In this document: positions 1,906 to 24,036 of the stretch, in pieces
How the letters are laid out: each line of letters starts with the position of its first letter
Position numbering within the stretch: position 1 is the first letter of the stretch
Origin: a virus
DNA: 24,036 nt
Direction: 5' to 3' (one strand)
IMG/VR virus record: IMGVR_UViG_3300008012_000187
Span: 1 to 24,036 of that record
The notes under the pieces: generated by a model
Told to the model about the DNA's origin: nothing
Databases searched by the model: none
The model's input: the letters and a program-made list of their open reading frames with translations, nothing else
Made by a program: the position numbers and the translations under genes

Positions 1906-2448
1906 TTAGTTTACAACCTTTAATATAGCATTAAAAGTTTTTTTGAAAGAATTTGCATCTTTCTGTAAAAGTCTAAGGTATTTATCACGAATAGGTGCCT
2001 TAACAGACAATAATGCATCTTTTACTTTAACTGCATCTGCAGCTTTGACCTTTGTCTTTTTCATATCATCTGTTCTAACTTCTGTGTCTCTACCTGTATC
2101 TTCCATAGATTTTAACTGCATTAGAACATTTGCATCAGGTCGAAGTTGAGTTCCTCTAGCTGTTGATGCAAGTGCATCTATAGCTCTAGATATAACTTCA
2201 TCCTCTTGAGCTTCGGAATATTTTCCACCTGCCATTGTTGATATACTTGCAAGTCTAGCTCTCAAATCTTTCTCGTCTTTTGCTTGTGCAACTGCACGTG
2301 CAATCTTTTTATTACCAGCATCAGACATCATACCAAAGTCGGCAACTTTTTCCATTACCTTTCTGACTTTAGCAGTCTCTTGTTTGATATAACCTAATTT
2401 CTTAAGTTTCTCTTTAAACAATTTGTATCTTGCGTCTACTCTATCCAT
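1906..2448 (-). CDS. Helical, lysine-rich hypothetical protein
   Basis: A basic, mostly helical protein of 180 residues, starting MDRVDARYKLFKEKLKKLGYIK and ending in LRLLQKDANSFKKTFNAILKVVN. Three starts are possible. The ATG at 2448 follows the upstream stop by 1 nt and gives the most compact layout. The ATG at 2478 has a better Shine-Dalgarno (AAGAAGGG) and adds MTEKSTQIRN. An ATG at 2505 overlaps the upstream gene more. I see no catalytic motif. It sits in the block of small late-type genes, so an internal head or scaffold-like role is possible but not shown. Confidence 0.72.
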   Translation of the reverse strand: MDRVDARYKLFKEKLKKLGYIKQETAKVRKVMEKVADFGMMSDAGNKKIARAVAQAKDEKDLRARLASISTMAGGKYSEAQEDEVISRAIDALASTARGTQLRPDANVLMQLKSMEDTGRDTEVRTDDMKKTKVKAADAVKVKDALLSVKAPIRDKYLRLLQKDANSFKKTFNAILKVVN

Positions 2449-2449
2449 A

Positions 2450-2767
2450 TTACGAATCTGTGTCGATTTCTCCGTCATACTCACCCTTCTTAACTTGTTC
2501 TTCATAGTTAATAAGACCTATGTATGCATCGTTTATCTTATCCCAAACTTTTGAGACTGTATCCACTACGTTAGGATACTGCAAGTCTGAATGTAGTTTA
2601 TCTGCTTGTTCTAATGTCTTTTTGATTTTTGCAATTTGTTTGATTTCTTTATTTCTATCAAACTCTTTACCATCATACTTACTTTTTCTTTGATACGAAC
2701 CATTAAATCCTAGTTTCTCATCTAGTTGATGCATATCTCTGTATGTTTCGAACAAGTCTTTAGACAT
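2450..2767 (-). CDS. Hypothetical phage protein
   Basis: A 105-residue protein starting MSKDLFETYRDMHQLDEKLGF. The first ATG overlaps the upstream stop as TAATG, suggesting translational coupling. It is charged and helical (EIKQIAKIKKTLEQADKLH), with YPNVVDTVSKVWDKINDAYIGL and an acidic C-terminus. There is no signal peptide, membrane segment or known motif. It is part of the unbroken run 4100 to 1906 of genes touching end to start, so probably made together with them late in infection. Not recognised. Confidence 0.75.
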   Translation of the reverse strand: MSKDLFETYRDMHQLDEKLGFNGSYQRKSKYDGKEFDRNKEIKQIAKIKKTLEQADKLHSDLQYPNVVDTVSKVWDKINDAYIGLINYEEQVKKGEYDGEIDTDS

Positions 2768-3900
2768 TACTTCAAACCTTTAGTCAACATCTTGTCAATC
2801 TGAGGTGTTGATGTGTCCTTTTCTGTTGGGTCACCATATGATGACCTACCGATAACCATTCTTAAGAAGTCATTAACTGCCTTCTTATTACCTTTAATTC
2901 TTATGTGTTTACCTAATTGTGATGCTTTGATACCAAATCTTCTTGCTTGTTTTACAATTTCTAATGAGTGTTTGTTTTGACCAGCAGGTGTTGGTATTCT
3001 GTTTTTAGGGTCAACTGTGATGTTTGCAACTTCTTCGTCTAACCACATTTCAACCATTCTTCTATAAGAGTTGAATACTGATTCGTTCTTCTCTTCTTTC
3101 TCTTTCTTTGCAATTGCGATTGCAGCTTGTTGAGCAGGTGATACTGCTTCTCTGATTTTACCTTTAACTATATCTTCAAGGTCACGAGACAACCAGTCAA
3201 AAAAGTCATCGGGGTCATCACTCTTGACTTCACCATTGTTCATTGCCCACTGCATTAAATCGTCTTCTGCTTTCTTACCAGCAGATGATGAGAATGATAA
3301 ATCACCCGTTTTGTATGCTTTTGTAATTTCTCTTTTGTGTTTCCTGAAGATATCTTTTATTTTCATTGCTTCACCAAGTTGTGTGTCTTCCTTTGTTAAA
3401 AGTTTCTTTGCCTTTTGTCTGTCTAGGAACATAAAAGTGTGGGTTTTCCCTTTCTCATCTTTAACAGTGTAACCTTTTCTATCTTTCTTTACAATCTTAC
3501 CAAATTGTTTGTTACCCTGTGAATCATAAAAGTCTAACTCAAGACCAACCCTTGCATCCTTTTCGGACTCTGTTCCCATTCCTTTTTGTGCAAGTGTTCT
3601 GTAGTTTTCACCGATTACTTCTACTTCTTCGTTTGCAAATCTAAGTGCAGTTTGCACTTCTTTTGACTTTAGAATCTTGTCTCCGTAGAAGTTTTTGATT
3701 GCTTTCATTGCAACATCAAATGCACCTTCTAAGTCTAATGCAACCTCTACTGCCTTTTTAACTTGAGGGTCTCTGACAGGATGTTTTCTAAAATAAGAAG
3801 CAACCTCAGACCCAGTAAGTTTTGACTTACCGTATGGGCCAAGTGGATTCACTTTACCGTCTTTGTCTAATACTTGTTTTGCTTCTTGAAAGATATTCAT
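2767..3900 (-). CDS. Large hypothetical phage protein, possibly head-internal
   Basis: A 377-residue protein coupled to its upstream neighbour by TAATG. It begins MNIFQEAKQVLDKDGKVNPLGPYGK. A helical N-terminal part (about 30-110) is followed by a small beta-like module, LELDFYDSQGNKQFGKIV and KGYTVKDEKGKTHTFMFL (about 125-160), which looks like a KOW/SH3-like barrel. A long charged middle follows, then a C-terminal section (about 290-377) with HSLEIVKQARRFGIKASQ and GNKKAVNDFLRMVIGR, resembling a small nucleic-acid-binding or translocator-like fold. None of this is diagnostic. Several L/I-x-E tripeptides could be prohead-protease sites. Function unknown. Confidence 0.75.
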   Translation of the reverse strand: MNIFQEAKQVLDKDGKVNPLGPYGKSKLTGSEVASYFRKHPVRDPQVKKAVEVALDLEGAFDVAMKAIKNFYGDKILKSKEVQTALRFANEEVEVIGENYRTLAQKGMGTESEKDARVGLELDFYDSQGNKQFGKIVKKDRKGYTVKDEKGKTHTFMFLDRQKAKKLLTKEDTQLGEAMKIKDIFRKHKREITKAYKTGDLSFSSSAGKKAEDDLMQWAMNNGEVKSDDPDDFFDWLSRDLEDIVKGKIREAVSPAQQAAIAIAKKEKEEKNESVFNSYRRMVEMWLDEEVANITVDPKNRIPTPAGQNKHSLEIVKQARRFGIKASQLGKHIRIKGNKKAVNDFLRMVIGRSSYGDPTEKDTSTPQIDKMLTKGLK

Positions 3901-8213: not shown

Positions 8214-8221
8214 TATTTATC
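8214..8221 (-). promoter_or_regulatory. Putative late promoter box (GATAAATA)
   Basis: GATAAATA on the minus strand overlaps the stop codon of the adenylyltransferase-kinase gene and ends 5 nt before the ATG at 8208. It differs by one base from the T4 late consensus. Confidence 0.45.
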
Positions 8222-9704
8222 CTTTCTTATTAAGGAGTTCTATTTCTCTCCATTTAGATGCAAGTTTATTAGATGGAAACTTAGATGTCCATGTTAACAT
8301 CTTACCGTAGAGTGCAGATGATTTTTGTTCTAATGCTTTTTTAGTATCATCGTTTTTAATTTCAACAAAATCTTTACCAAATAACCTTTTAAAATCGTTT
8401 GCATTTTTTTGAGCTGCATTCCAATCTGATTGAACAATTTCAGGTGGTAGTTTACGAGCTCTCTCTGCATTTCGTTCTTGTGCAAATTCTAATGATGTGT
8501 TTACATATACCATCTTATATTCATATCCAAGTGCATCTAACATATTTTTATATGTGACAATCTTTTCTTTCTTTGCAGCTGTGGTATCAAAGATTAATCC
8601 AAGTCTACCTTCAATATAGTTATCCATATTCTTTCCAGTAATCTGTTTTGCTTTTGCACGGATAGGGTCTACTTTACTAAAGTCTGCACCTCTAAGGTCA
8701 AGTGTCATCCCTGCTTTCTTTAGACCAACTTCAAATGCTTTATCTGTATTGACTAGTTTAAGACCAAGTGCTTTAAGGTTTAGTTTATCGACCACAGTGG
8801 ACTTACCACTACCTGGCCCACCCATAAGGAATACTGCTTTGAATATGCCTGGGTCATAAACACCCTCTTGTATGAGGTCTTCAATCATATAGTCGGGAAG
8901 TTCGTTCTCTATGAGTTTCATTCCCTTACGAATTGCTTTATATAAACCCTCTGCATCTGATTTGTTTTTAGTAGGAACACCTTCTTTAAATGATTCGAAG
9001 TCACCCTTCTCTGCAAACATTCTCATTTTAGATGCACTCATTCCTGATACATCATCTGCATCAGGGTCACGTTCACCTGCTGAGATAATTGTAATCTCTG
9101 CAAAATTGTAGAAACCGTGTCTACCTTTTACATTGTTGTATTTGGTGATAATGTTTTCGAACTCTTTAACTCTGTCTGAACCTACGACCATACGAATGTT
9201 GGTGTATTTCTTATCATAGAGGTAAGTAAGTATTTCAAAAATCTGACGTGCAGGTGTTTCTACGACAGTCACATTTTTGAAAAACTTCTTGAGGTATTTG
9301 ATTTTGTCTTTGTAAGATAAAGGATTCTTTACAGGGTCATTTGAATGTGAAGTAAACAATAGAGGTTGATAACCACCACTGGATGCCTTTGTAAGTTTAT
9401 CTACAAGTTTTGCATGTCCTGTGGTAGGTGGATTGAATCTTCCAAAGGTAAATACTACACCTTTACCTTTTGCCTCGGTTAAATTTTCAAAACTGTTTCT
9501 TTTTCTTTTCATTTTCTCTCGGTCTTGGTCTACCATGTCATCCATTTTATCCATGTTTTCATAACCATCTTTTGAAGTGTCGTATTCGAATGCTTTTGTG
9601 GGGTCACCCACTACCCAGTCATCTCTTTTAAACTTGATATTTGTTTGCATAGGATACTTTGGTAATGCAAACTCTTCTTCTAAAAATTGTTTAAATGATT
9701 TCAC
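8217..9704 (-). CDS. Bifunctional nucleotidyltransferase (NMNAT-like) and P-loop kinase with capsid-targeting-like leader
   Basis: A 495-residue protein starting at GTG 9704, which overlaps the upstream TAG as TAGTG. Leader: MKSFKQFLEE (1-10), similar to the T4 internal-protein capsid-targeting peptide MKTYQEFIAE that gp21 cleaves after I/L-x-E. A second L-T-E-A site lies at 75-78, just before the first domain. Domain 1 (about 80-265) is an HxGH-type nucleotidyltransferase: FTFGRFNPPTTGHAKL with TxGH at 94-97, VVGSDRVKEF, and SGMSASKMR (220-228) for the usual ISGT/S-x3-R motif. Domain 2 (about 288-450) is a P-loop kinase with GGPGSGKST (295-303). The layout recalls NadR (NMNAT plus nucleoside kinase), but the kinase is not clearly ribosylnicotinamide kinase. 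The substrate is unknown. Confidence 0.85.
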   Translation of the reverse strand: MKSFKQFLEEEFALPKYPMQTNIKFKRDDWVVGDPTKAFEYDTSKDGYENMDKMDDMVDQDREKMKRKRNSFENLTEAKGKGVVFTFGRFNPPTTGHAKLVDKLTKASSGGYQPLLFTSHSNDPVKNPLSYKDKIKYLKKFFKNVTVVETPARQIFEILTYLYDKKYTNIRMVVGSDRVKEFENIITKYNNVKGRHGFYNFAEITIISAGERDPDADDVSGMSASKMRMFAEKGDFESFKEGVPTKNKSDAEGLYKAIRKGMKLIENELPDYMIEDLIQEGVYDPGIFKAVFLMGGPGSGKSTVVDKLNLKALGLKLVNTDKAFEVGLKKAGMTLDLRGADFSKVDPIRAKAKQITGKNMDNYIEGRLGLIFDTTAAKKEKIVTYKNMLDALGYEYKMVYVNTSLEFAQERNAERARKLPPEIVQSDWNAAQKNANDFKRLFGKDFVEIKNDDTKKALEQKSSALYGKMLTWTSKFPSNKLASKWREIELLNKKG

Positions 9705-10081
9705 TACTCTTCACCTTCATCTTTCTTTTGTGTCTTTTTTAGTTCTTTTGCTTTAACAGATGGTAGAATTCTTTTTGCAAGTTTTTGAATGAATGCCTTT
9801 TTCTTTTCTAATCGTTTTTCTAATTCTGCTTTTGCACCTAACGATAAGTCTGACTTAGACTTATCCTTTAATATTTTCTTAATTAGAATATTTCGTGCTT
9901 GTTTTTCAGCTTTCGTTTTTAACTTTTCAGGATTCATCTGTGCCTTTTTCATTGCACGTTTTCTTTTCATAAGAATCTTTCCTTTGTTCTTACGAAATGC
10001 AGCTCGTTTCTTCATACGAGTTGCAAGTGAATCTACTTCATTAAGTTCTTGTTCTTCTAAAAAGTCTCTAAAAGATTTCAC
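9704..10081 (-). CDS. Small, highly basic protein with capsid-targeting-like leader
   Basis: A 125-residue protein rich in lysine and arginine (KKRAAFRKNKGKILMKRKRA, with LEKRLEKKKAFIQKLAKRIL further on), which suggests nucleic-acid binding. The N-terminus MKSFRDFLEEQELNE is nearly the same as that of the adenylyltransferase-kinase and resembles the T4 internal-protein leader, with L-E-E as the likely cleavage site. The start codon is GTG at 10081, overlapping the upstream TAG, with GGAG 6 nt before it. Short, basic, head-targeted proteins are the hallmark of T4 internal proteins (IPI-III), so I propose an internal head protein injected with the DNA. Not shown directly. Confidence 0.75.
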   Translation of the reverse strand: MKSFRDFLEEQELNEVDSLATRMKKRAAFRKNKGKILMKRKRAMKKAQMNPEKLKTKAEKQARNILIKKILKDKSKSDLSLGAKAELEKRLEKKKAFIQKLAKRILPSVKAKELKKTQKKDEGEE

Positions 10082-11289
10082 TATTTACTCCAGTTCTTTG
10101 TTGCAGTAAAGTTATTCTGACTAAATTCTAATCTGTCAACAAACTTGACAGCCTTACCATTAATGTCTATGCAAACATATCCTTCAGGATTTACTGCTTT
10201 CAATCCTTTATCTGTTTCTACAAAAGTTCCGATTGACTTTATTCTATTTAGAGAGTTTATAATAATACTCTTTGCCTCTACAATCTTCTCTTGAAACTTG
10301 GTGAGTGCAATTAGAAAGTTCTTCAAACTTCTGAGTTCTCTTAATACTTGTTCACCAATCTCTCTCTTCATCTGTTTTGTTTTTTCTTGTTTTACTTTAC
10401 CAACTACTTTATCAGTCCAATAACTTTCAAAGTGTGTAATATATCCTTCGTAGGTAGGTTTAAAACTATTACCTCTAATTAATCCATTAGTGTATGTCTT
10501 GTATGATGCACCTGCAGCTGACTTTGCAGCAACAGTGTCTTGTATTTTTCTAAAAGTATCTAAGTCTTTCTTTTTAATCAGATGAAACTGTTTTCCTACG
10601 TCAGTTAATACTTTTGTAAGTTCAACACTTTCTTTTGCAGTCATAGATGAACTACCTGATTCATCTTTATACTTTGCATCATCAATCCAAACATCTCTGT
10701 TGTGTCCTAAACTAGAAATGTTTGCACCAAAGGATGCACTTAAATCTTCAATCGTTCCACCTGTGTAGGTAGTGTGAAACACAATACCCATCTTTGCATC
10801 ACCAATAGTCTTACCTAATTCAGAATCTTTCTGCACTGCATACTTAATAGTGTTAGGTTGGAAGGTAATACACTTCATACCATCAATGGTTTCTTCTTTT
10901 TTATCTGAATCAGTAAACATGAGATCACCTTGGAGAATGGTGTTCCATGATAACCTAGAAAGATATTTAAAACCAATTAAAAACTTATCCTTGAGGTCAC
11001 CACCTATATCAGAAGATTTCTTAATCTCATCTTCTGAAGTGTAGTAGAGAGGTGTCTTATTAAATAATGATTTTTTTGCAATGAAAAACTGTTTGGTCTC
11101 AGGATGAAGACCACAGAAAAATGCAGGAGCTCCGTCCCATTTGACTGTCATGTTGACACGAGACTTACTGTTACCCTTTAACATGTCTCTAAGACCTAAT
11201 AAAAAGTATACAGCTCCTCTTCCCCCATCAATTCCTTGATTAAGGATTTCATCTTCAACATGTTCTAAATGGAGATTTTTTGCTCCCAT
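10081..11289 (-). CDS. KxDG nucleotidyltransferase-like protein (ligase/capping superfamily candidate, DUF6267-like)
   Basis: A 402-residue protein. It starts MGAKNLHLEHVEDEILNQG and then VNMTVKWDGAPAFFCG, where K50-W-D-G53 fits motif I (KxDG) of covalent nucleotidyltransferases such as DNA/RNA ligases. Further signs in the right order are FFIAKKSLFNK (62-80), TILQGDLMF (motif III-like, about 115-123), GIVFHTTYTG, and near the C-terminus PEGYVCI (E369-G370, motif IV-like) followed by GKAVKFVDR (K379, K382, motif V-like). I recall it as the DUF6267 family of T4-like marine phages. Ligase, adenylylating or inactive relatives are all possible. AGGTG lies about 4 nt before the ATG. The downstream gene overlaps by 1 nt, so it probably works together with the kinase-nucleotidyltransferase. 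Confidence 0.75.
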   Translation of the reverse strand: MGAKNLHLEHVEDEILNQGIDGGRGAVYFLLGLRDMLKGNSKSRVNMTVKWDGAPAFFCGLHPETKQFFIAKKSLFNKTPLYYTSEDEIKKSSDIGGDLKDKFLIGFKYLSRLSWNTILQGDLMFTDSDKKEETIDGMKCITFQPNTIKYAVQKDSELGKTIGDAKMGIVFHTTYTGGTIEDLSASFGANISSLGHNRDVWIDDAKYKDESGSSSMTAKESVELTKVLTDVGKQFHLIKKKDLDTFRKIQDTVAAKSAAGASYKTYTNGLIRGNSFKPTYEGYITHFESYWTDKVVGKVKQEKTKQMKREIGEQVLRELRSLKNFLIALTKFQEKIVEAKSIIINSLNRIKSIGTFVETDKGLKAVNPEGYVCIDINGKAVKFVDRLEFSQNNFTATKNWSK

Positions 11290-14500: not shown

Positions 14501-14684
14501 GAGGTTTTTGCTTTTTATTTTTATTTGGGTGACAATGTCCCATAGATAGGGGCTCATCGAATCTTACATGTTCTTCCATCATTACTTTAATTTGATGTAT
14601 TTGTATTTCCATTATACCTAAAATAATGAAAACTACTACAAATCCAAGTAAGAAGAAACATTCTAACACTGATAACGTCATCAT
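14490..14684 (-). CDS. Small single-pass membrane protein
   Basis: A 64-residue protein with one N-terminal membrane helix (LECFFLLGFVVVFIILGIME, about 7-26), followed by a helical polar segment and a charged C-terminus (HCHPNKNKKQKPLDK). The start ATG overlaps the nuclease stop as ATGA; a second ATG follows at once. Phage proteins of this size and shape often act on the host membrane, for example in superinfection exclusion or lysis timing, but nothing here shows which. Confidence 0.65.
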   Translation of the reverse strand: MMTLSVLECFFLLGFVVVFIILGIMEIQIHQIKVMMEEHVRFDEPLSMGHCHPNKNKKQKPLDK

Positions 14685-15124
14685 ACTAAACCTTGTTCAA
14701 TCAGAAACTTTCTGTTCTCCATGTGTTTGGATTGAACTAACTCCTTGTTTTCACCAGTGTATTCCACTGCATGTCTATCAGTTATCATTTGTGCATTGAC
14801 ACAAAACTTAGTTTCGTTTTCAAATACTGGATGACCTTCATTCTCTACAGAATGAACCCATATCTCACCTAGTATTCTTCCGAACTTACCTTTGTCGTGT
14901 GAAATGAGAGAGACTTTACCTCTAGATAAAAGGTCTTTAAGATGTTTCTTGGATGCCTTACCGAACTTCTTCTCTTCTAAATCTCTTGTGCGAGATTCAG
15001 GAGTATCGATACCCATAAGTCTGACCCTTTGTTTTTTGTAGGTCATTCCGAATCCAAGGTCAATGTCGACATCGATTGTGTCACCATCAACCACTTTTGT
15101 TACTGATACATTATATTGATACAT
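14681..15124 (-). CDS. Thermonuclease (SNase-fold) family nuclease
   Basis: A 147-residue protein with the staphylococcal nuclease-like OB fold: VTKVVDGDTIDVDIDLGF (7-24), KKQRVRLMGIDTPESRT (30-46, with R and the metal-linked D) and HDKGKFGRILGEIWV (about 75-89, catalytic R). It has no signal peptide, so it acts inside the cell and may take part in host DNA breakdown or DNA repair. An AAAGGA Shine-Dalgarno precedes the ATG, and a perfect TATAAATA box is 8 nt before the start. A hairpin terminator stands just upstream. It overlaps the downstream membrane gene by 4 nt. Confidence 0.88.
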   Translation of the reverse strand: MYQYNVSVTKVVDGDTIDVDIDLGFGMTYKKQRVRLMGIDTPESRTRDLEEKKFGKASKKHLKDLLSRGKVSLISHDKGKFGRILGEIWVHSVENEGHPVFENETKFCVNAQMITDRHAVEYTGENKELVQSKHMENRKFLIEQGLV

Positions 15125-19967: not shown

Positions 19968-20405
19968 TTACCACGGAAAGTAAAAACCTGTTTTTTGCAA
20001 ATGATATCTTGCAAAAGTGACTTTATCATTTATCTCATTACTCTCAGTAGCTGTTAATGTAAAACCCAAACTATTGGGTATAAAATCTAAAACTGTATCA
20101 AGTGTAAGACCTGAGTCATACATATCATCTAATACAAGTGTTCTACCTTCAACTCTAATGTCGTGTATCCAATATGGATTCTTATCATTACCATTTCTTG
20201 TTTGAAACCCGACAATACTTAACGGTAGTTGTGTATATGAAGATGCAATTATTGCTGGGATTAATCCACCTCTGTAGATACCTACAATATTTTGAAAATC
20301 ATTCTCTCTTAAATATGTTTTAAGAATTGATTCATCTTCTTTAAGATGACGCCATTGGTAATGACTAAGTCCACCAGCACCAACTTTAACTGCTGGGTTT
20401 ATCAT
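19968..20405 (-). CDS. Phosphoribosyltransferase
   Basis: A 145-residue type I phosphoribosyltransferase. The PRPP-binding motif is TLVLDDMYDSGLT (about 89-101, D93-D94), and an upstream IVGIYRGGLIPAIIAS (40-55) matches the pyrophosphate loop region. The overall look is like the xanthine/hypoxanthine-guanine or small bacterial gpt-type enzymes that join a base to PRPP. It starts within the end of the 99-residue gene (20-nt overlap), which itself follows the DpdA-like gene. A role in handling 7-deazaguanine or purine bases is attractive, but the substrate cannot be read from the sequence. Confidence 0.85.
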   Translation of the reverse strand: MINPAVKVGAGGLSHYQWRHLKEDESILKTYLRENDFQNIVGIYRGGLIPAIIASSYTQLPLSIVGFQTRNGNDKNPYWIHDIRVEGRTLVLDDMYDSGLTLDTVLDFIPNSLGFTLTATESNEINDKVTFARYHLQKTGFYFPW

Positions 20406-20685
20406 CCTTTTCTTTTTCCCTTTCTATCTGCTCTTGCATGATTTCGATAAGAATGTCACCCATCAATTTATTTAGTTCCATATTATTTAGTAGATTGTCT
20501 ATCTCTTCTCCTGACTTTGGTAACCGTCTGATGGTTCTTTGAAAATTTATATTTGGTTTACCCTCTTCAAACTGAACCTTACCATATTGATAAACGAGTC
20601 CTTCAAACTCCCCACTAATAAGTTCTATAGCTGCATCCTGTTCAAAAGGATTTTCAACTACTCTATAAACACTACCAAACATCAT
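20386..20685 (-). CDS. 99-residue hypothetical protein coupled to dpdA
   Basis: A 99-residue protein, MMFGSVYRVVENPFEQDAAI, then ELISGEFEGLVYQYGKVQFE and acidic/helical EIDNLLNNMELNKLMGDILI with a charged tail. The N-terminal half is beta-like, the C-terminal half helical. The first ATG overlaps the DpdA-like stop as ATGA, the same linkage as in the preceding pathway genes, which suggests joint work. Its end overlaps the phosphoribosyltransferase start by 20 nt. Not recognised. Confidence 0.75.
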   Translation of the reverse strand: MMFGSVYRVVENPFEQDAAIELISGEFEGLVYQYGKVQFEEGKPNINFQRTIRRLPKSGEEIDNLLNNMELNKLMGDILIEIMQEQIEREKEKDDKPSS

Positions 20686-21974
20686 GAGAAAAACCCATCC
20701 AAACTACCTGAAAACGATTCTTCTAATTTGTCTTGAGAACCTTGTAGTGGTAACCAATCATTCACAAATTGTTTATAGTCCTTTATATTAGATAGACCTC
20801 TGTTAGGCACACTGGAAGGATTATTAACCATATCATTTACACGAGTCATAAAATTTTCTACTACTTGCATTTGCCAAAAGAATGGTAGTAGTTTTGCACC
20901 ATCCTTACCTTTGTCTGTATTATACAAACGTTCCTTTTCTGTATTCTCTAATGACCACTTAGTGCATTCTTGAATTAGAAAATCAAACGATGGTATATTC
21001 CATTGACTAAAATAGGATTTATTCAATTCAAATAACTCTGAAAACACTGGAACCAATTGATTTCTATAAAGGTCATCATAAGCTCTTGTTGTTGTTGCAG
21101 GACTATCTAAATCTGTGTTAACCCATAAGGTATCTCTGTATCTTGAGAAAAACCAAGAGTTAGCTTGTGTCGATGAATCGTATGAAACATTTTCAACAAA
21201 GTCAAAGTATTCAGGTGATACAAAAAAAGGTGTCAACATTTCATGTGACCCAACACCTAACAGATGTATATTCTTTTTGAGTTCTAATGGAATTTGAAAC
21301 TCTTTAACAGAATAAATCATTTCTGCACGATTTACAAATCCAATACCTGAACATGCAGATGAAAGACTAATACCCAAACAAGACTTTAATTCCTCTTCTG
21401 TTAGTCCTTCAACAATAGTCTCAATGTATTCTCTATATGATTCTAAATCTTGACCTTGAACAATTAAAGAAATTTTTGCACTAGAATCCATTTCATCAAA
21501 AACTTCAATCTGTCTCTTACAGTTTTCAAGTGTAGACTTTGCCTTTTCTTTAATAAGTTCTCTTGCAAATCTTCTTCCTACTGTAGAAGTCTTCATAGAC
21601 CATCCACTGTTAGACCCATCAAACTCTGTGGGGATGTCATCAAAAATCATTGCAACATCAGAATATTTAGCTTGGTGTTTATAGATACCTTCTTTGATTT
21701 CATCAGTAAGACCCTTCTTTGTTCTAGATAACTGTAGACCCCCTGAATCTGCAAAGTGTTGATACCATGAAGGCATTAACTCACGAATACACTCTCCGTG
21801 TTTAGGTTCACAATGTGAATTGAATAACATAGATACATTTTGGTTTTGGTATTTGTCATCTATGTCCTTTATCTTTCTATTGAATACGTCAACATAAGGT
21901 AAAAGAACAGAAGACTTATAATACAAGTCACCCGTTCCCATGGTCATACCCGAGATTACATATTCAAAATTCAT
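20682..21974 (-). CDS. dpdA: DpdA-like TGT-family transglycosylase (7-deazaguanine insertion into DNA)
   Basis: A 430-residue TIM-barrel enzyme related to tRNA-guanine transglycosylase. Key matches: HFADSGGLQLSR (D76, the TGT DSGGFQ motif), SDVAMIFDDIP (105-114, substrate-binding Asp region), SLIVQGQD (169-176, for GIVQGG), CLGISLSSACSG and LLGVGSHE (238-245, for MGVGTPE). D266 in YDSST is a likely nucleophile. The C-terminal CxCxxC-H zinc site of tRNA TGTs is not seen. Its place after queE-queC-folE makes exchange of DNA guanine for preQ0 or a derivative the most likely role. A tRNA-acting TGT is the alternative. It is translationally coupled on both sides by ATGA overlaps. Confidence 0.85.
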   Translation of the reverse strand: MNFEYVISGMTMGTGDLYYKSSVLLPYVDVFNRKIKDIDDKYQNQNVSMLFNSHCEPKHGECIRELMPSWYQHFADSGGLQLSRTKKGLTDEIKEGIYKHQAKYSDVAMIFDDIPTEFDGSNSGWSMKTSTVGRRFARELIKEKAKSTLENCKRQIEVFDEMDSSAKISLIVQGQDLESYREYIETIVEGLTEEELKSCLGISLSSACSGIGFVNRAEMIYSVKEFQIPLELKKNIHLLGVGSHEMLTPFFVSPEYFDFVENVSYDSSTQANSWFFSRYRDTLWVNTDLDSPATTTRAYDDLYRNQLVPVFSELFELNKSYFSQWNIPSFDFLIQECTKWSLENTEKERLYNTDKGKDGAKLLPFFWQMQVVENFMTRVNDMVNNPSSVPNRGLSNIKDYKQFVNDWLPLQGSQDKLEESFSGSLDGFFS

Positions 21975-22210
21975 CGACTATAATACTTCCATAACCCATA
22001 TACACTTATTATAAACCAAAAAAATTCAATCACTAAACTTGCAAGGTTAGGTGTGTAGAACAAACTAACGGTTACTAAAATTGCAACCATCATATTATTA
22101 AAACTATACCAAAATCCCTTAGGGTCTATACGTTCTAATTGTAAAAGTGCATAAGTTGATATGAGTAGTGCAACACCAACAAATCCAATTATATCAGGTA
22201 TACTAATCAT
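21971..22210 (-). CDS. CBU_0592-like small membrane protein in the preQ0 operon
   Basis: A 79-residue protein with three membrane helices (about 7-25, 38-54 and 58-75). Patterns are DIIGFVGVALLISTYALLQL, FWYSFNNMMVAILVTVSLFY and SLVIEFFWFIISVYGLWKYY. The IIGxxGVALxxxxYALLQL...VIExFWxxISxYGL signature matches, from memory, the CBU_0592 family of small bacterial membrane proteins, whose role is not known to me. It is fused into the operon by ATGA overlaps at both ends, between folE and the dpdA-like gene. Transport of a pathway base or anchoring of the enzymes are possible but unproved. Confidence 0.8.
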   Translation of the reverse strand: MISIPDIIGFVGVALLISTYALLQLERIDPKGFWYSFNNMMVAILVTVSLFYTPNLASLVIEFFWFIISVYGLWKYYSR

Positions 22211-22851
22211 TTCACTATTTGCATAAACTCTGCACGAGTCTTATCATCATCAAAGAATGCACCACCCAATCTACTTGTTACCATAGATGAGTTCACATCC
22301 TCTACTCCTCTTGCCTTGACACAAAAATGGTCACACTCCATGTATACTGCAACTTGTTCTGTTTTTAAAATAAACTGGAGAGCTCTATAGATTTGTTCTG
22401 TTAGTCTTTCCTGCACTTGAGGTCTTCGTGAAAAAAAGTCTACCACTCTGTTTAGTTTTGAAAGACCTACAACATTACCTGTAGGAATATATGCAACATG
22501 ACACTTACCATAGATAGTTTGAAAGTGATGTTCACACACTGACTTCACAATGATGTTCTTTTGAACTACCATTGAATCAAACGAAAACTTATTAGTAAAG
22601 GTTGTGCATTTAGGAAACTTATCATAATCCATACCCACAAACAGTTCATCTAAAAACATTGATGCAACTCGATGAGGTGAATCATGTAGTGAATCATCAT
22701 GCATATCACATCCAATCTTTTCCATAATTACTTTAAAATGGTCTGCAACAACATCAATGTTATGTTCTCTTCCACCATTCATAGGTGTCTCTACACCCAA
22801 CTCAAGTAAGTGGTTTTTCACTCTTTGTCCTAAACTGCTATCGTATTTCAT
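22207..22851 (-). CDS. folE: GTP cyclohydrolase I
   Basis: A 214-residue enzyme that turns GTP into dihydroneopterin triphosphate, the first step of folate and 7-deazaguanine synthesis. Zinc ligands fit the family: C106 and H109 in VCEHHF, and C177 in ECDHFCVKARGV, with H175 nearby. The ATG at 22851 is preferred over 22860 because it overlaps the queC stop as ATGA and has GGAG at better spacing. It lies after queE and queC and before the membrane protein, so a role in preQ0 synthesis is most likely. It acts in the cytoplasm, usually as a toroidal decamer. Confidence 0.95.
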   Translation of the reverse strand: MKYDSSLGQRVKNHLLELGVETPMNGGREHNIDVVADHFKVIMEKIGCDMHDDSLHDSPHRVASMFLDELFVGMDYDKFPKCTTFTNKFSFDSMVVQKNIIVKSVCEHHFQTIYGKCHVAYIPTGNVVGLSKLNRVVDFFSRRPQVQERLTEQIYRALQFILKTEQVAVYMECDHFCVKARGVEDVNSSMVTSRLGGAFFDDDKTRAEFMQIVK

Positions 22852-23612
22852 AATTTCCATTCTCCGTTTTCACTTATTATCATAGCTTTAAGTATATCTC
22901 TATCCTCTTTACCTCTGTATGTTTCATTATACACATCATCTTTAATATTGTCAAGCCAGTTTGCTTCCCAAGGTGGATTTTCCCAATAGTCATCTTCAAA
23001 AAAGATATTATTGTTTACCAATGATACCCATTTTCTAAAACATGCCTTACACTGACCACAGTGTTTCTGTCTACCTTCATAACATGAATAGGATTGAAAT
23101 AGTTCTCTCTCTGCAAAATCTTTACCCTTTACCTCAATAAACTCTCTGACTAATTCTGTTTTTGTTTTGTTCTTATATGGTGATTCAATTGTAAATTTTC
23201 TTTCTTCAGTCCAGTGTTGTTCTTGCCACATGTGATTGAGAAGGTCTTCCATTCTTAAATAAAACTTCTCATCTTTATCAAATGACCTATCTCCACTTAC
23301 ACTACCTAACCAAATAGTTTCTCCGTAGTGTGATGCAAGAAGAATTAAATGTGCATTTCTGTTTGGAACTATTGCATCGTCTCTTTCAAATTGTCCTAGA
23401 TTTAGAACATCATCAAGGAATATCATTCTCTCATCCAATCCACTCATAGACTTTCTTTCTCTATGGTCGTAATTAGATTTCATACTGATATTCAATAGAA
23501 TGTCGGGCTGTAAAAGATGGTCAATGATTATTGAATCTTGACCACCACTGTAGAGAAGAACAGTCTTGTCTCTGACTTTCTCTCTACTATTTGTTATCAT
23601 ATTTACACTCAT
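22848..23612 (-). CDS. queC: 7-cyano-7-deazaguanine (preQ0) synthase
   Basis: A 254-residue PP-loop ATPase that converts 7-carboxy-7-deazaguanine to preQ0 using ATP and ammonia. The PP-loop is YSGGQDSI (S22-S27), and VPNRNAHLILLASHYGET (82-99) is the family's VPxRN motif. A zinc site of four cysteines lies at C177, C185, C188 and C191 (YSCYEGRQKHCGQCKACFRK). It is a little longer than typical QueC, with a polar, acidic C-terminal extension (about 200-254, FFEDDYWENPPWEANWLDNI). Its start overlaps the queE stop as ATGA. Confidence 0.93.
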   Translation of the reverse strand: MSVNMITNSREKVRDKTVLLYSGGQDSIIIDHLLQPDILLNISMKSNYDHRERKSMSGLDERMIFLDDVLNLGQFERDDAIVPNRNAHLILLASHYGETIWLGSVSGDRSFDKDEKFYLRMEDLLNHMWQEQHWTEERKFTIESPYKNKTKTELVREFIEVKGKDFAERELFQSYSCYEGRQKHCGQCKACFRKWVSLVNNNIFFEDDYWENPPWEANWLDNIKDDVYNETYRGKEDRDILKAMIISENGEWKL

Positions 23613-24036
23613 GTTCCGATTTGGTTACCCCATATGTAACAATGAACTCTTGCAGATACATTGTATCCTCTATCCATTGTTTGTTCTGCAATTGAAGCTG
23701 CATTATCTTTTTGAGTTTCTTCTAATGCACCTACAGGCATAATCCATATAGGATAATTAACCCCAACATCACGGAAGGATTGGATTGCATTTTCAATCTC
23801 TTCCCATGATTCATCTGTTCCATTACATACAAACTTAAGTTGTCCTTGTTGTGATAAGTCATGATATTGTTTGACAACTTCAGGTTTGACTGCATCCTTC
23901 TCTCCACTAGTGTTGAAGATTTTAGGACTGATAGAAAAGAATAACTCTTTATCATATGAAGAAAAGTAATCTTGAAATTCTTGTTTTAATATTTGTGTTC
24001 CGTTAGTCTCAATAGTAATGTTATAATGGTTCATCG
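23609..24036 (-). CDS. queE: 7-carboxy-7-deazaguanine synthase, C-terminal part (cut by right edge)
   Basis: The last 141 or so residues of a radical SAM enzyme that makes 7-carboxy-7-deazaguanine from 6-carboxytetrahydropterin. The CxxxCxxC iron-sulfur site must lie beyond the window. Visible QueE features are ITIETNGT, FFSISPKIF, YPIWIMPVGA and the C-terminal SARVHCYIWGNQIGT (the family's Q/H...YxWG-x2-G ending). The ATG near 24034 is internal to the family alignment and is not the true start. The stop overlaps the queC start as ATGA. queD would be expected upstream. Confidence 0.88.
   Translation of the reverse strand, partial: MNHYNITIETNGTQILKQEFQDYFSSYDKELFFSISPKIFNTSGEKDAVKPEVVKQYHDLSQQGQLKFVCNGTDESWEEIENAIQSFRDVGVNYPIWIMPVGALEETQKDNAASIAEQTMDRGYNVSARVHCYIWGNQIGT

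Follow-up and report, generated by a model that had tools for sequence, protein, structure and literature searches.

A probable viral DpdA2-type 7-deazaguanine DNA-modification operon with a divergent QueC and swapped cassettes between queE and folE

We analyzed a virus record of 24,036 bases from a marine T4-like phage (IMGVR_UViG_3300008012_000187; 35% G+C), hereafter the window, which carries at its right-hand end an operon of a recognized type, the DpdA2-associated operons for modifying DNA with 7-deazaguanines, whose pathway is already known. An initial annotation had placed five translationally coupled genes, queE-queC-folE-membrane protein-dpdA, at positions 20682–24036, and all five are present there on the minus strand. 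The window holds the C-terminal 141 aa of queE (23609..24036; phrog_2076, 'QueE-like radical SAM', 9.3e-26), the N-terminus lying beyond the window. It is followed by the gene for a divergent QueC-family ATP pyrophosphatase (22848..23612; Pfam QueC, 1.5e-15), by folE, encoding GTP cyclohydrolase I (22207..22860; Pfam, 4.5e-60; NCBIfam FolE, 277.9 bits, cut-off 202), by the gene for a small membrane protein, which had been given no family and belongs to the CBU_0592 family (21971..22210; NCBIfam NF047864, 1.2e-25), and by dpdA2, for a putative DNA-guanine transglycosylase of the nt-1 type (20682..21974; phrog_10773, 4.9e-60). Successive genes of this set overlap by 4, 13, 4, and 4 nt. The chain does not end at 20682, as had been proposed, but continues on the same strand into the gene of a 99-aa protein (20386..20685; phrog_3998), a conserved neighbor of dpdA2 that overlaps it by 4 nt, and from there, with an overlap of 20 nt, into a previously overlooked gene for a purine phosphoribosyltransferase (19968..20405; Pfam Pribosyltran, 1.4e-5; NCBIfam PRK09177 xanthine phosphoribosyltransferase, 4.4e-11, below cut-off).

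The sequence to the right of 24036, where queD and the N-terminus of QueE had been sought, was supplied by the related contigs L002, L003, and L004, whose DpdA2 proteins are identical, 99% identical, and 87% identical to the window copy, respectively. Upstream of the position of the window end, these contigs contain queD (PTPS/QueD Pfam, 1.7e-19) and a full-length queE (in L002 at 2274-3104, 276 aa; radical SAM Pfam, 3.2e-9). With these contigs added to the window, the preQ0-pathway set of FolE, QueD, and QueE is complete. The order of genes in the operon is seen again in many independent marine viral contigs, and chance was therefore excluded as an explanation of the gene overlaps.

The transglycosylase of the window scores below the cut-offs of Pfam TGT (0.017; 14.6 bits against 26.3) and TIGR00430 (15.6 bits against 306.75). 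A tblastn search with the window DpdA2 found 70 phage records at approximately 30% identity. Most of these belong to Vibrio phages of the KVP40-like group, nt-1 among them, and 48 Vibrio records were matched in the same search. Identity to the nt-1 record is 30.9% over 65% of the length (E 2e-25), and the window protein is 29–31% identical to proteins of pf16 and KVP40-like phages. The nt-1 protein is the founding member that defines the DpdA2 family (PMC6884629). A structure predicted with AlphaFold2 from a 33-row alignment (mean predicted local distance difference test score, pLDDT, 89.8) matches tRNA-guanine transglycosylase (TGT; Foldseek 3e-8; Z 19.0, 3.8 Å over 287 residues) and DpdA 7ui4, a solved DNA preQ0 insertase (Foldseek E 1.6e-6). 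A search of the DpdA2 profile against PDB sequences returned noise only, and the relation was recognized through the fold comparison. The window protein contains the motifs DSGG (residues 76–79), FD (111–112), QG (173–174), and YDSS (265–268), and DSGG with D76, D112, QG, and D266 are invariant across the 33 rows. Such an invariant aspartate/QG pattern is the expectation for the TGT mechanism. None of the 33 rows, the window row included, has the zinc-binding CxCxxC that characterizes tRNA TGT. As judged from its sequence, the transglycosylase is of the DpdA2 type, distinct from the DpdA type of phages 9g and CAjan. Approximately 30% identity to DpdA2, a modeled TGT/DpdA fold, the invariant catalytic motifs, and the missing zinc motif all support membership in the DpdA2 family. 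The earlier proposal that a preQ0-type pathway (FolE, QueD, QueE, and a QueC-like protein) is coupled to a transglycosylase of the DNA type is likewise supported.

The same comparisons bear on a different reading, in which tRNA is the substrate of the transglycosylase or the operon boosts host queuosine as a form of auxiliary metabolism. The initial annotation had held that a structure-based assignment to tRNA-acting TGT would speak against DNA modification, and tRNA TGTs are indeed the best fold matches of DpdA2; preQ0 genes are, moreover, known without DpdA in some phages (PMC6884629). However, the tRNA TGT zinc motif is missing throughout the alignment, Pfam TGT is below cut-off, and DpdA2 homologs come from phages with modified DNA. 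QueF, the supplier of preQ1 for bacterial TGT, is above cut-off in none of 25 DpdA2 records, an absence that is provisional as the records are fragments; QueF matches were obtained in 16 of the 25, but none reaches the cut-off, and they agree with the low score that FolE itself returns for QueF. We consider action on tRNA, or a boost of host queuosine, unlikely.

The QueC protein of the window reaches 45.2 bits on the NCBI equivalog TIGR00364, below its cut-off of 150.3; the canonical-type relative in L038 scores 175.3 bits on this model. Canonical QueC has a motif set of SGGxDS, YxQxHxxE, VPxRN, YPDC, and a zinc motif, and in E. coli QueC Tyr35, Arg99, Tyr131, and Tyr189 are required for function, with Tyr131 and Tyr35 required for preQ0 formation (PMC13329287, 2026). 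Alignments show that the window QueC retains SGGxDS, VPNRN, and the zinc region CY(x)nCxxCxxC with its Tyr, and lacks YxQxHxxE and YPDC, in place of which YDHRER and FDKD are found. We label the QueC form that lacks the latter two motifs QueC*. Scans from the QueC* side returned 80 viral and 16 bacterial-genome loci, and among the 85 loci annotating as QueC* none has a glutamine amidotransferase (GATase), a DpdA or DpdA2 was detected in 60, and a further 7-deazaguanine pathway gene is present in 79. QueC* is thus seen in operons with DpdA2, with a CAjan-type DpdA, and, in some of the loci without either, with a third TGT-like protein. In a QueC tree, which was quick to build, has long branches, and is relied on for the split between QueC* and canonical QueC alone, QueC* forms a single clade of 71 rows (Shimodaira–Hasegawa-like approximate likelihood ratio test support 90), apart from the canonical, CAjan, CP220, and GATase-linked QueCs. 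None of the 71 rows has an aligned YPDC; a regular expression matches one row (L251, FKDC), which also carries the DKD motif. We encountered no account of such a subfamily in the literature searched, the reach of which did not extend to Cui 2023 and a 2024 7-deazaguanine review. The third TGT-like protein (DSGGYQ, no Pfam match) is encoded directly after QueC* in a T4-like contig in which no DpdA2 was found (L213, 6747-7982), and faint DpdA2-profile matches in L219, L226, and L240 may resemble it.

A single-sequence phmmer search with QueC* gave no matches; a search with the QueC* profile did, the best being QueC itself (9.9e-6), followed by Cap9 (E 0.0018) and QatC (0.003). The two latter matches recall the QueC-like proteins of bacterial immunity that act in N-terminal deazaguanylation, and QueC* and the TGT-like protein might in the same way modify proteins; Cap10, from the complex type with a deazaguanine-modified CD-NTase, is also a weak fold match to DpdA2. 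Yet QueC scores better than either immunity protein, no defense-system partner was recognized among the operon genes, and QatC lacks the VPxRN motif (PMC13329287) that QueC* retains, so that modification of proteins appears very improbable.

We compared 39 non-redundant DpdA2 loci for which queE, folE, and dpdA2 could all be seen. Between queE and folE, 15 of these loci encode QueC*, 11 a canonical-like QueC, and 3 a class-I methyltransferase, with no QueC in the other 10. A GATase partner is present in 11 of 11 loci with canonical-like QueC versus 0 of 15 with QueC* (Fisher p 1.3e-7, loci treated as independent of phylogeny). Among the 11 former loci, an ArcS-domain gene is found in 4 and a DUF6884 gene in 5, where the ArcS assignment represents Pfam DUF5591 plus weak NCBI ArcS matches below cut-off. 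The cassette state changed at least 6 times in the DpdA2 tree, and the methyltransferase cassette is found in L018 (75% identity), the row adjoining the pair of the window. This Methyltransf_23-type S-adenosylmethionine-dependent enzyme occupies the QueC slot in L018 (1528-2388), L025 (6472-7332), and L026 (924-1784), and also in L273, L274, and L275, and the DpdA2 proteins of the methyltransferase-cassette operons are 70–76% identical to that of the window. It may methylate 7-carboxy-7-deazaguanine (CDG). Gene content leads us to infer a common intermediate, the CDG produced by QueE, with the 7-substituent set by the cassette: QueC* would lead to an amide or nitrile, QueC with GATase to an archaeosine-type base, and the methyltransferase perhaps to methylated CDG. 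Glycosyltransferase-family genes adjoin dpdA2 in Synechococcus phage BUCT-ZZ01 (L008, 4557-5900), ACP17 (L009, 7263-8291), and Xanthomonas phage X1 (L010, 4680-5840); no QueC was detected in these three phages, whose 7-deazaguanine may receive a sugar.

The initial annotation had noted no queF- or arcS-type gene, and this holds for the window-type contigs (records of 135, 65, 55, and 46 kb among them), in which no QueF is above cut-off and no ArcS domain was found. DUF5591 is confined to the QueC and GATase types, although in fragmentary records the absence of this domain and of GATase from QueC* loci is provisional. Because QueC* is the sole tailoring gene after QueE in these contigs, dPreQ0 and dADG, the deoxynucleosides of the nitrile preQ0 and the amide ADG, are the leading and both plausible candidates for the base of the window. 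The proposal that preQ0 itself is the simplest product was not secured, as it presumes a canonical QueC, and the window protein lacks YPDC and YxQxHxxE; an amide (dADG) or some different product is equally credible.

Within the DNA-modification reading, QueC* might halt at the amide, so that the DNA base would be dADG, or another new adduct of CDG, rather than dPreQ0. In favor of this are the loss of both motifs, given that E. coli QueC needs Tyr131 and Tyr35 to form preQ0 (PMC13329287), and the comparison of measured phages: the Campylobacter phages that have dADG in place of all their dG (PMC8306585) encode a QueC with FPDC, altered at the Tyr of YPDC, and the QueC of CAjan, a dPreQ0 maker, retains YPDC. 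On the other hand, QueC* has kept its ATP loop and VPxRN, the essential Tyr is still present at its zinc site, the nitrile step might employ other residues, and the QueC of Campylobacter phage CP220 clusters with canonical QueC in the tree and not with QueC*. The FPDC of the Campylobacter phages and the YPDC of CAjan make us lean towards the amide without deciding the matter, and we regard a halt at this stage as a serious possibility, if somewhat short of an even chance. More tentatively, and with some doubt, QueC* could be a separate phage DNA-modification enzyme that tailors CDG to a product other than preQ0, at a step that is readily exchanged in DpdA2 operons. If true, the methyltransferase in the QueC slot of some relatives would predict a methyl ester or a comparable base, so far unseen in DNA.

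Modification of DNA is the best reading of the operon through homology to measured DpdA2 phages, because two of these carry 7-deazaguanines: in phage 6E351A, which we assume to equal record 6E35.1a, 15% of deoxyguanosine (dG) is present as dPreQ1 (PMC12028318), and nt-1 DNA contains traces of dPreQ0, dADG, and archaeosine (dG+) (PMC6884629). In the pathway that we propose, FolE and QueD, the latter encoded outside the window, would yield the pterin, QueE would form CDG, and QueC* would convert the carboxylate of CDG, with an amide (ADG) or a nitrile (preQ0) as the most likely outcome. DpdA2 would then excise guanine from DNA, with D266 as the aspartate nucleophile, and insert the modified base, which should conceal restriction sites and probably blunt host restriction enzymes. 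As a transglycosylase of the DpdA2 kind releases guanine, the phosphoribosyltransferase of the operon would have the simple role of salvaging the freed guanine to GMP. Several points weigh against this interpretation. The nearest phage with mass spectrometry shares only ~30% DpdA2 identity with the window and has a different QueC type as well as QueF; nt-1 DNA is modified at just ~0.1% of G, such that the activity of DpdA2 may be low in certain phages; and sequence and a structural model alone cannot tell a DNA from an RNA substrate. On balance, we consider it very probable that GTP is converted by the operon into a 7-substituted 7-deazaguanine and that DpdA2 places this base in the phage DNA.

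Among known systems, the nt-1/KVP40-like Vibrio phages (PMC6884629; 6E351A, PMC12028318) share with the window the DpdA2 family, a FolE/QueD/QueE/QueC-family set, and the CBU_0592 protein, there encoded beside queE. They differ in having QueF and a canonical-like QueC beside a GATase-like gene, where the window has QueC* and neither QueF nor GATase, and in having their genes in two loci instead of a single operon. The dPreQ0 operon of Escherichia phage CAjan likewise combines FolE, QueD, QueE, a QueC-family protein, and a DpdA without an amidotransferase, but its DpdA is of the 9g type, its QueC is canonical with YPDC, and an annotated preQ0 transporter stands in place of the CBU_0592 protein. 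The archaeosine (dG+) route through Gat-QueC/ArcS is represented by DpdA2 relatives (66–69% identity) that have QueC, GATase, and ArcS-like/DUF6884 genes in the same slot, whereas its GATase and ArcS-like/DUF6884 genes are absent from the window and its nearest relatives. Finally, Bacteroides phage BS162P1 and operons of Bacteroides phages and prophages have the QueC* subfamily, QueE, and an adjacent DpdA, which is, however, CAjan-type and not DpdA2.

The CBU_0592 protein was modeled with three helices (residues 4–26, 30–52, and 56–78; pLDDT 68). A fold search with this model gave no match with E under 6, the best Z being 6.4 to a nucleotide-sugar transporter, within noise; a SemiSWEET/PQ-loop transporter fold looks alike by eye but was not supported, at Z 3–4 on a model of this pLDDT. 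The position of the gene varies, as it is found in the folE-dpdA2 gap, in the queE-queC* gap, after dpdA2, or, in Vibrio phages, beside queE (directly after it in both KVP40-like records viewed), a variability that had hinted at a true association. The protein is also present in 57–60 kb Vibrio siphophages, of which ALK is classed in the Queuovirinae, and in phage NCTB, which itself has QueC*. Of 40 other viral records with this protein, all possible fragments, DpdA2 is present in 1 and a clear QueE in 18. With DpdA2 lacking in 39 of the 40 and a clear QueE in over half, we rejected a dedicated pathway component, and the protein is a recurrent neighbor rather than a pathway-specific part. In 21 of the 39 non-redundant loci, the phosphoribosyltransferase gene is no more than 3.5 kb away from dpdA2, and in others it is located between queE and folE.

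Elsewhere on the minus strand, the window encodes T4-like replication proteins, including a UvsX-like recombinase and a family B DNA polymerase that is closest to those of cyanophages (46–48% identity). A cyanophage host, considered on this basis, was not borne out by a psbA-type gene, which is above cut-off in none of 7 related records, including those of 135 and 153 kb. Further minus-strand genes encode a cytidylyltransferase-like domain (FGRFNPPTTGH) fused to an AAA_33/zeta-toxin-like kinase domain (8217-9704), possibly of phage NAD or nucleotide metabolism, a DUF6267 protein (10081-11289; 7.9e-95), and a staphylococcal-nuclease homolog (14681-15124). Upstream of the operon in L004 (46 kb) are genes for a FecR-domain protein and a CHASE2-adenylate/guanylate cyclase, which are unusual in a phage (1228-2370 and 3880-5727), and L002 likewise has the C-terminus of a CHASE2 cyclase. 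In L045, a flavodoxin gene (3383-3880) is located between queD and queE and is a plausible source of electrons for the radical SAM enzyme QueE. In the QueE proteins of L002, nt-1, Vibrio phage 1.081, pf16, and BUCT-ZZ01, ~38 residues separate the second and third cluster cysteines (GCNLEC...GCDSSYSW); those of CAjan, Saguaro, and ACP17 have CxxxCxxC without this spacing.

As the pathway is known, its presence in another marine phage is no surprise, and the interest lies in the divergent QueC step together with the repeated exchange of cassettes. A QueC subfamily that lacks residues thought to be essential for preQ0 bears on the chemistry of QueC. Near-identical DpdA2 proteins that are combined with differing enzymes for the 7-substituent make it testable which product QueC* forms, and whether DpdA2 accepts a broad range of bases or has coevolved with one base.

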